Shown: positions 1 through 3,399 of the stretch, piece by piece
Numbering within the stretch: the first letter of the stretch is position 1
Layout of the letters: the number at the start of each line of letters is the position of its first letter
From: Opitutus sp. GAS368
Lineage (GTDB): Bacteria; Verrucomicrobiota; Verrucomicrobiia; Chthoniobacterales; Chthoniobacteraceae
NCBI GenBank assembly: GCA_943329925.2
Contig: CALQFT020000001.1
Coordinates: 1 to 64,000, forward strand
Direction of reading: 5' to 3'
Length of the DNA stretch: 64,000 nt
Made by a program: the position numbers and the translations under genes
Notes under the pieces: model-generated
What the model was told of the DNA's origin: nothing
What the model saw: only the letters and a program-made list of their open reading frames with translations
Database searches by the model: none

Positions 1-230
1 AAACCCGAGGTGAAGCCCGTGCCCAAGCCTGAGCCAAAACCTGAGGTGAAGCCTGTTCCCAAGCCTGAGCCAAAACCTGAGGTGAAGCCCGCGCCCAAGC
101 TTGAGCCAAAACCCGAGGTGAAGCCCGTTGCCAAGCCTGAGTCTAAACCCGAGGTGAAGCCTGCTCCCAAACCTGAGGTGAAGCCTGCTCCCAAACCTGA
201 GTCGAAACCCGCGCCCAAGCCTGATGCGTC
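1..230 (+). repeat. Imperfect tandem repeats encoding [10 protein letters not shown](V/A)PK units
   Basis: Recurring 'aaacc(c/t)gaggtgaagcc(c/t)g...cccaagcctgagcca' units visible from base 1 to about 230. Confidence 0.85.
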
Positions 231-753
231 CCCCCCTAAAGTCGTGGTCGCTGGAGGGAAGGGGGACTCCGCCGCGCCTCCAGCCGTTCAAGTGGTGCGT
301 GCAGAAGTAGTTCGGCCCGGAAGCGGCGGCGGCACTTCGGGAGATGGATCCGGTGGCTCCGCTCAGGGCCGCTCAGGCGCAAGCGGTTCAGGCAACGGCG
401 TTGGTTCCGGAGGTTCTGGCAACGGCTCCGCAAGCGGCAGGGCAGGTGGCGGACCAAGTGCTTCTGATCTAGGTCGCTACAACCAGATGATTCACGAGCG
501 TTTTTACGGCGTTTGGGAGCAACCAATCTCGGTGGTGCGTTCCACGCAGGACTTCGTTACTATTTTAAAAATCCGCATCCGCAAGGACGGTGCCATCGTC
601 GGCCGGGAAATCGTTAACCCCTCGGGCAATCCCGCCATGGATGAATCTGTTCAACGCGCGGCGGAGAAAGTACAGCGCATCGAGGCGCTCCCGACTGGAA
701 TGACTACGGATCCTTACGAGGTGCGCATCGCCTTTAAACTCGACCAAGGTTGA
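1..753 (+). CDS. TonB-family energy transducer / TonB C-terminal domain protein (5'-truncated by window edge)
   Basis: Frame is open to base 1; Lys-Pro-Glu repeats ([12 protein letters not shown]), Gly/Ser-rich linker, then a TonB-C-like module ([49 protein letters not shown]...YEVRIAFKL). Confidence 0.8.
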
Positions 754-1975
754 GTTTAGCCTTGCCCGCACGTGGATCGAATTTTTCCCCAAACGAGTTG
801 CCAGTTTTCTGGGCGGCGCTGACTTTTTTGAGAAAAAACATCCGAGAAACGACGCCTTCCGGACAAATTTTGTTACTCACCCGGCATTGGAACGCAAGCA
901 TCGCGTCAGCGGGTTCAAGGGCGACTGCCAGAGATGGTGCGTTGCAGCCATCGAGGGTGATGGAAACGCCCTTGGCTTCGTCCCAAGCTTCCCATTGAAA
1001 TTGAAGCGGCGCCTCTCCCGTGGCAATAACCTCCATTTTAACGGGTTCACCCACCGGTGCGCGCAGTACTATCGGAGTCGTTGAGTCAAAACTGGGCGTC
1101 CCTTTGGGCTGTGTTTTGGATTTCACTCCCGACTCCATCTCCAAGGGCAGAGCCTGTTGCTGTGTGGGAACTGCCGCCATGCGCTTTGGCGGAGCGTAGG
1201 TCTGCGCAAAAACCGGGCTCGCCGTGGCAGGTTCTTTGGAGCGAGCCACGGTGTCGCTTGCTAATTCTGCAGAGCCGGCTAATTGCTCCTGGGAAAAAGG
1301 TTCGCCACCCTGAGTTGGCGGCGTTCCTGTGGGAGAGGATGCTGTTGCATCGCTGGTAACGCCCACTTCGGAGCTGCCATTTGGCGCAACCCCGCCATGA
1401 ACTTCCTGTCCGCTTGGCTCTTCATTTTTCACAGCGGCCGCCGCTCTTGCGTACGCCTGCTTGATGCTGGAGTGAAGGTCCGGCCGTGGCGGTGCCTTAT
1501 AAGGTTGTGCTGGAAGTGGTTGGGTGAGGTGTATTCGCCTCAATGCCAGCGTGTCGTCCTGGGAGGACTCCGTGCCGATTTCCACAGGGGAACTCTGCAG
1601 GGAGGCATCCACGGGCTTTGCCTCCCGTATAGACTTTGCAATTTTCGCTAACCGAGCCGCCCGCTCGGTGGTCAAATGGCGCCTGAAATTAAGGCACTCC
1701 GACTGTGTGACGGGGGGCACCCACTGGAATTGAGCCAATCCCGAAAAAGACTGCCAATAAGGATTTTCCGGCCAGCGACTGAGCACTTCCCCTTCGGAAA
1801 GGCCAGTGAGCTCTCCTAGAATGATCATGGACGCTAGTATCCAGATTTTCCCAGCACTCAATCCCTCTTGGGTTGCCTCAGGAAACAAACCCACCACTTC
1901 CGCCCAATCCAGTTCCCGCGTCACCCTGGCCAAAGGGCGGTTTGGATCGATAAAATCTAGAAGCTTGGGTTTCAC
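734..1975 (-). CDS. Transposase InsH/IS1182-type N-terminal (DUF772-like) domain fused to disordered linker and C-terminal Ig-like domain
   Basis: N-term 'FIDPNRPLARVTRELDWAEV...GLSEGEVLSRWPENPYWQSFSGLAQFQWVPPVTQSECLNFRRHL' matches the IS5/IS1182 transposase N-terminal pattern; C-term 'APVGEPVKMEVIATGEAPLQFQWEAW...PADAMLAFQCRVSN' is Ig-like. Confidence 0.65.
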   Translation of the reverse strand: MKPKLLDFIDPNRPLARVTRELDWAEVVGLFPEATQEGLSAGKIWILASMIILGELTGLSEGEVLSRWPENPYWQSFSGLAQFQWVPPVTQSECLNFRRHLTTERAARLAKIAKSIREAKPVDASLQSSPVEIGTESSQDDTLALRRIHLTQPLPAQPYKAPPRPDLHSSIKQAYARAAAAVKNEEPSGQEVHGGVAPNGSSEVGVTSDATASSPTGTPPTQGGEPFSQEQLAGSAELASDTVARSKEPATASPVFAQTYAPPKRMAAVPTQQQALPLEMESGVKSKTQPKGTPSFDSTTPIVLRAPVGEPVKMEVIATGEAPLQFQWEAWDEAKGVSITLDGCNAPSLAVALEPADAMLAFQCRVSNKICPEGVVSRMFFLKKVSAAQKTGNSFGEKFDPRAGKAKLNLGRV

Positions 1976-2085
1976 TAGATTGAGAAGCGTACACCATTCC
2001 TTCGTATCTTGGAATTACGGAGAGAGACGTTTTTTATCACCCATGCCTTCTTGCCGGATTCTGAACAACCCATCACGCTTTTGCC

Positions 2086-3399
2086 ATGGCTCTCGTCCCT
2101 AAATTTCCCTCAGTGGAAACCCTGTCTTCAGTTCAGGGAAATCCTCTTGATTGGGATAGGGCCCATGTCTGGCACCCCTTTACCCAAATGCAGGAGTGGT
2201 GTGCCACCGACCCGCTTTGTATAGTGGAGGCTCAGGGAGCGCGCCTTTGTGATTCGGAGGGAAACTGGTACATCGATGGCAACGCCTCAATCTGGACCAA
2301 CCTTCACGGGCATCGCCATCCTCGGCTGGATTCCGCCCTCCAAAAGCAGCTCGCTCGCTTTGCGCACACTTCGTTTCTCGGCCTCACCCATCCTCTGGCC
2401 GCTCAACTCTGCGCAGAACTCTGCGCGCTTTGGCCACCAAACACGCTCACTCGCGCATTTCTTTCCGATAACGGCTCCACCGCCATTGAGGTCGCATTGA
2501 AAATGGCGGCCCAATACTGGCAAATGCTCCAACAGCCTCAGCGCCGACGTCTTGTTGCGTTTCATGGTGCCTATCATGGAGATACCATGGGCGCCTCAAG
2601 TCTGTGTGGTGTCCCGCTATTCACTGAACGCTTCGGCGCTTGGCAATTTCCTGTGGACCTTGTCGAATCCGCCGAGGCCCTCGAGCAACTTCCAGGCGCA
2701 GAGGTTGCCGCCGTGGTCATCGAGCCCCTCGTTCAAGGCGCAAACCAAATGCGCCTCTGGCCCGCGGGCCTGCTTTCCTCCGTGCGCGCATGGTGTGATC
2801 GGCATGGAGTTTTACTCATAGCCGACGAGGTAATGACGGGCTTTGGTCGCACGGGCACCCTTTTTGCGTGTGAACAAGAGTCTGTGGTCCCCGATTTTGT
2901 AGCCCTCGCAAAGGGGCTTACTGGAGGGTATATGCCACTCGCAGCGACCCTTACCACAGAGCAGGTTTTCCGAGCCTTTCTTGGTGGGCCGGAGCGCACC
3001 TTATATTACGGCCATTCGTATTGTGGTCATGCACTGGCTTGTGCCGTCGCGCTGGAAAATCTCGCCATTTTCCGCGAAGAGGGTGTGTTAACTCGGCTTC
3101 AGATTCAGATTGCACTGCTTAAATCACTTTTGGAAAAAGAGTTGCAACCATTGCCTCATGTTCATGAAACTCGTCAGCTCGGGTTTCTCGCAGGCATCGA
3201 ATTGCGTCACCCGGATGGCTCTCCTTTCGCACCGGAGCTGGGTATGGGCTGGAAGGTTTGCCGCGCAGCTCGTGCATTCGGACTGCTGACGCGTCCCATT
3301 CGCGACACGGTGGTCTTGATGCCACCCTACTGCATCACCGATGCCCAACTAGGGCAGGCTGTAGGCGCAATCGCCGCGGCTTTGCGATCATGTTGTTAG
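2086..3399 (+). CDS. bioA: Adenosylmethionine-8-amino-7-oxononanoate aminotransferase
   Basis: 437 aa; 'VWHPFTQM', 'DGNASIWTNLHGH', 'FHGAYHGDTMGA', 'IADEVMTGFGRTGTLFACE' typical of BioA class III aminotransferases. Confidence 0.9.
   Translation: MALVPKFPSVETLSSVQGNPLDWDRAHVWHPFTQMQEWCATDPLCIVEAQGARLCDSEGNWYIDGNASIWTNLHGHRHPRLDSALQKQLARFAHTSFLGLTHPLAAQLCAELCALWPPNTLTRAFLSDNGSTAIEVALKMAAQYWQMLQQPQRRRLVAFHGAYHGDTMGASSLCGVPLFTERFGAWQFPVDLVESAEALEQLPGAEVAAVVIEPLVQGANQMRLWPAGLLSSVRAWCDRHGVLLIADEVMTGFGRTGTLFACEQESVVPDFVALAKGLTGGYMPLAATLTTEQVFRAFLGGPERTLYYGHSYCGHALACAVALENLAIFREEGVLTRLQIQIALLKSLLEKELQPLPHVHETRQLGFLAGIELRHPDGSPFAPELGMGWKVCRAARAFGLLTRPIRDTVVLMPPYCITDAQLGQAVGAIAAALRSCC

Follow-up and report, generated by a model that had tools for sequence, protein, structure and literature searches.

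A verrucomicrobial host protein apparently formed from the DUF772 domain of an IS5-type transposase and an Ig-like domain

The gene at positions 734–1975 (minus strand) of the window, the 64,000-nucleotide stretch of DNA analysed here, encodes a protein of 413 amino acids with a GTG start, as defined by its open reading frame and its orthologues. Under the reading favoured here, with a probability of about 0.45, the host inherits the gene vertically; its product, in which a disordered linker connects DUF772 from an IS5-type (IS1478-like) transposase to an Ig_3-type domain, would be a cytoplasmic DNA-tethered adaptor or regulator. That the gene is real and domesticated, and not a decaying transposase, is very probable.

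Results

Profile searches demonstrated that the N-terminal region of the protein is of transposase type, as the earlier note had proposed. The Pfam family DUF772 (PF05598) matched residues 45–106 (E 2.8e-5; 24.5 bits against a cut-off of 23.1), and the NCBIfam model of IS5 transposases, NF033578, matched residues 3–114 with its positions 7–121 of 419 (E 2.5e-17); the latter model also matches all 10 family members. The remainder of the 419-position model found no match in the 413-residue protein, the score being below the NF033578 cut-off of 275 bits. No DDE catalytic domain was found in the protein either, and since the identical search with the same profile library detected DDE_Tnp_1 in two genuine IS5 transposases, this domain is truly absent, as had been claimed, and not overlooked. 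The IS1478-like transposases of family IS5 (NF033578; DUF772 followed by DDE_Tnp_1) thus align with the window protein over their N-terminal about 115 residues. In contrast to them, it lacks the DDE part, has no recognised mobile-element structure, is fixed among orthologues and carries an Ig domain instead. The closest annotated plasmid relatives are IS5/IS1478-type transposases from Roseomonas, with 37–38% identity.

From the profiles and the structural model, the transposase-derived domain was delimited to residues 1–120 (window 1616–1975, minus strand), and it was predicted to be an all-helical fold with a pLDDT of 91 and a pTM of 0.84. A sequence search of the PDB with the whole protein returned no match, and Foldseek of the N-domain model against the PDB returned only noise, i.e. 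no solved structure. The absence of a DNA-binding fold among PDB matches is consistent with a tentative alternative of some weight, in which the domesticated protein no longer binds DNA and its helical DUF772 part is a scaffold for oligomerisation or protein contacts, gathering Ig domains into clusters in the cytoplasm. The same may be said of the near-neutral charge of the domain (15 basic and 14 acidic residues) and of its most conserved segment, ENPYWQxFSG..FQW, which is aromatic rather than basic. However, genuine transposase N-domains are just as near neutral, so that charge is uninformative on DNA binding, and the basic residues R67, R98, R99 and R105 are conserved.

Residues 122–286 have a pLDDT of about 30–50, mostly below 50, in the full-length model and are predicted to be disordered. 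The linker of about 170 residues described earlier was therefore recovered as a disordered region, but its low complexity does not extend throughout, the segment of residues about 138–180 being conserved. In the alignment this patch, with the pattern ALALRxxH..QP..PYKAPPRPDF.SSIKxxYA (residues 138–180; window 1436–1564, minus strand), shows 72% identity between G000 and G001, against 15% for the variable linker. The latter, rich in proline, alanine and serine, comprises residues 181–290 (1106–1435, minus strand) and is fast-evolving and predicted to be disordered, as judged from alignment and model.

An Ig-like domain was assigned to residues 291–386 (818–1105, minus strand) from the model, Foldseek and Pfam. 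The AlphaFold full-length model contains a seven-strand Ig beta sandwich at residues ~302–384, and Foldseek grouped the C-terminal fold with Ig domains (3bfo being the top single-domain match, E 2.8e-4, TM 0.78 of target), which together confirm the Ig-like fold suggested from the sequence. Pfam Ig_3 was detected weakly in eight of 11 family members (best E 3.6e-4); the window copy itself gave no Ig_3 match. A profile of the C-terminal domain matched repeats in open reading frames of about 470–5500 amino acids across the class, and the domain resembles these Ig_3/I-set-type repeats of large verrucomicrobial open reading frames, to which it is kin. Unlike those, the protein has a single Ig domain with conserved cysteines (C344 and C364) and a conserved tail, the motif NSFGE at residues 393–397 (785–799, minus strand; from the alignment). 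Furthermore, reading of the sequence reveals no signal peptide: the protein opens with MKxRLxDxxD and the confidently predicted N-domain begins directly.

The gene is present as a single copy in its own 3.8-Mb draft genome. The genus (Spartobacteria, Verrucomicrobiota) is represented by 12 genomes, and nine of them, the window genome included, have a full-length orthologue; the other eight orthologues are 47–79% identical to the window protein over the matched segments. The genus further contains a short diverged version in G007 and an Ig-only open reading frame in G002, and G009 has nothing of the kind. The G007 version (L044, 8461–10255) is flanked by flagellin and feoB-like genes rather than by tonB and bioA, and the small reading frame of G002 (L045, 7411–7776, plus strand), akin to the C-terminal domain and without the transposase part, also lies outside the usual site. 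The fusion of DUF772 and Ig was not found elsewhere among 213 genomes of the order.

Values of dN/dS, obtained by NG86 (and by YN00 where it converged) for the least saturated pairs, namely G000–G006, G010–G004 and G008–G003, were 0.03–0.08 for the DUF772 part, 0.03–0.13 for the Ig part and 0.2–0.8 for the variable linker. Purifying selection is strong on each of the two folded domains. Upstream of the gene, a promoter-like element of the extended -10 type (TGGTGTACG; 1988–1996, minus strand) lies 20–21 bp 5' of the start codon. The corresponding motif TGGTRTA occurs at -20 or -21 from the start codon in seven of nine upstream regions tested (G004 and G007 are without it), with a chance of about 0.0016 per sequence, the sequences being related and hence not independent. 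It resembles an extended -10 that would give an almost leaderless mRNA. Around the gene, no inverted repeat resembling an operator was recognised. Although the N-terminal part is clearly transposase-derived, it is highly improbable that the gene is an ordinary decaying transposase fragment left open by chance: nine genomes have the full-length frame open, even where identity falls to about 50%, and the low dN/dS, the conserved promoter-like element and the one shared fusion all argue against decay.

In a tree built from 43 N-domains, one long branch (99/98) separates all ten members of the family, that of G007 included, from 30 transposase-type rows. G007 is itself on a long branch, so that its position is less sure. 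The genes tonB and bioA are adjacent in G009 (about 53 bp apart) and in G007 (about 30 bp), i.e. the site is empty there; in the other genomes the gene lies between tonB and bioA or beside one of them, except that the 3-kb contig with the G010 copy includes neither of the two. The site carriers form one clade in the LysRS tree (100/100) and again when bioA, tonB and an adjoining gene are concatenated (98/98). Given the empty sites and the carriers as one clade, the gene was most simply placed once at the tonB–bioA site, its loss from there in G007 and G009 being less likely. No convincing IS-like inverted repeats were seen flanking the gene. The marks of the IS5 family, terminal inverted repeats and multiple copies, were thus not found, and those of a domesticated gene were: a common location, one origin, purifying selection and no mobility. 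The proposal of domestication made in the earlier note is accordingly upheld by the orthologues, the selection, the single origin, the empty site and the failure to find an intact parent IS in the genome.

On the other side of the gene's stop codon lies tonB (1–753, plus strand), convergent with it and in relatives the last gene of exbB-exbD-tonB; the contig begins at window base 1, and this tonB is consequently truncated. The 20-bp overlap of the two genes (753 versus 734), reported earlier, is present here but is not a conserved trait, the corresponding genes of L037 being ~47 bp apart, and the TonB gene is itself cut by the contig end. An 11-bp hairpin (TAAACTCGACC/GGTTGAGTTTA; window 735–758) is located in the stop-codon overlap of the convergent genes and is possibly a two-way terminator. 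The TonB linker contains tandem Lys-Pro-Glu repeats (window 1–230) and varies in length among congeners, being long in G009 (L129).

Upstream, a divergent gene (2086–3399, plus strand) encodes a bioA-like aminotransferase, the BioA assignment being made by sequence reading. Five genomes have the gene diverging from bioA, and in seven it converges on tonB; a role as local regulator of one of these neighbours, either bioA or the exbB-exbD-tonB operon, was therefore considered. However, no bioA-like gene stands beside it in G001, bioA is on another contig in G011, no tonB stands beside it in G004, and these arrangements, like that of G007, break the linkage to bioA and/or tonB. Because the neighbours vary, neither tonB nor bioA is implicated, and a local regulator is quite improbable. 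Only a distant BioA-like aminotransferase (38–41%) was seen in G002, G005 and G001 (L126, L127 and L128), which suggests that bioA has been replaced in part of the genus.

When a sample of 390 genomes from the whole phylum was searched with the N-domain profile, all matches were transposases or fragments apart from one case, in the distant genus g257 (five short matches were read fully). Among the phylum-wide matches of ~150–220 amino acids that were inspected, L094 and L103 look like broken or cut transposases, and L096, L098 and L117 represent a conserved DUF772-only protein. In g257, a DUF772-only protein of about 165–200 amino acids is present in all three genomes (L115, L116 and L117; the G788 copy runs to the contig end), with 70–89% identity and a dN/dS of 0.15–0.32, which points to purifying selection. 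In two of the three genomes its neighbour is, by reading, a HEAT-repeat-like gene. Like the window protein, these proteins have DUF772 without DDE; unlike it, they have no Ig domain. They hold a separate place in the N-domain tree (100/99), and the g257 case is therefore apparently an independent event. DUF772 thus seems to have been taken over by hosts on more than one occasion.

Discussion

The protein would have arisen by fusion of the DUF772 N-domain of an IS1478-like transposase with an Ig_3-type domain such as large verrucomicrobial proteins contain, and it probably stays in the cytoplasm, as the apparent lack of a signal peptide would imply. Pfam assigns no biochemical function to DUF772, and DNA binding by the module is carried over from the family name only; the domain may nevertheless have kept the ability of the transposase to recognise DNA or to self-associate. 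The Ig domain and the motifs conserved in linker and tail might together hold a protein partner. Overall, the protein would then act as a DNA-tethered adaptor, probably a regulator at the transcriptional or nucleoid level.

A truncated IS30 OrfA has been proposed as a repressor of transposition (PMC2516522), and such truncated transposase repressors of the IS30 family likewise consist of an N-terminal domain without the catalytic part. The window gene, in contrast, lies outside any IS, carries a linker and an Ig domain, and has no partner IS found in its own genome. By analogy of design, in that only the DUF772 part of the transposase is kept, the catalytically dead N-domain might repress IS5 elements in trans, occupying IS ends or pairing with transposases, and IS5-type fragments do occur in two congeners (G006 and G011). 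Such a role is improbable, however: the identity to IS5 N-domains is about 24–37%, the gene is kept across the genus though parent elements are mostly absent, and no other DUF772 protein was found in its own genome, a metagenome-assembled genome (MAG) whose gaps limit the search. This last absence is not firm, because MAGs tend to lose repeated elements. The repressor and the neighbour-regulator readings are both ranked low because no parent IS was found and the neighbours change.

Reuse of a transposase domain by the host, as seen here, is described for the eukaryotic factors FHY3/FAR1, DAYSLEEPER and SETMAR, which are transposase-derived, the domain being fused to an unrelated one in SETMAR; the present case differs in being bacterial and in deriving from another transposase family. 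The literature searched on DUF772 and on bacterial transposase domestication yielded no description of this gene, and searches of PHROGs and PADLOC returned nothing useful. Clear bacterial cases in which an IS transposase domain has become a host protein, outside genome defence and RNA-guided systems, seem rare.

The adaptor reading raises the tentative possibility that the protein stands for a class of regulators or adaptors new to bacteria, in which DUF772 would provide DNA recognition and an intracellular Ig domain the recognition of a partner or ligand, and, with g257, that DUF772 was captured more than once in the Verrucomicrobiota. The record of the change is largely in hand, i.e. the parent family, the catalytic half lost, the second domain gained, the empty site and the selection. 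Since DUF772 works here without its catalytic partner, the role of this uncharacterised domain becomes testable, in a case where part of a selfish element seems to have become an ordinary protein of the cell.
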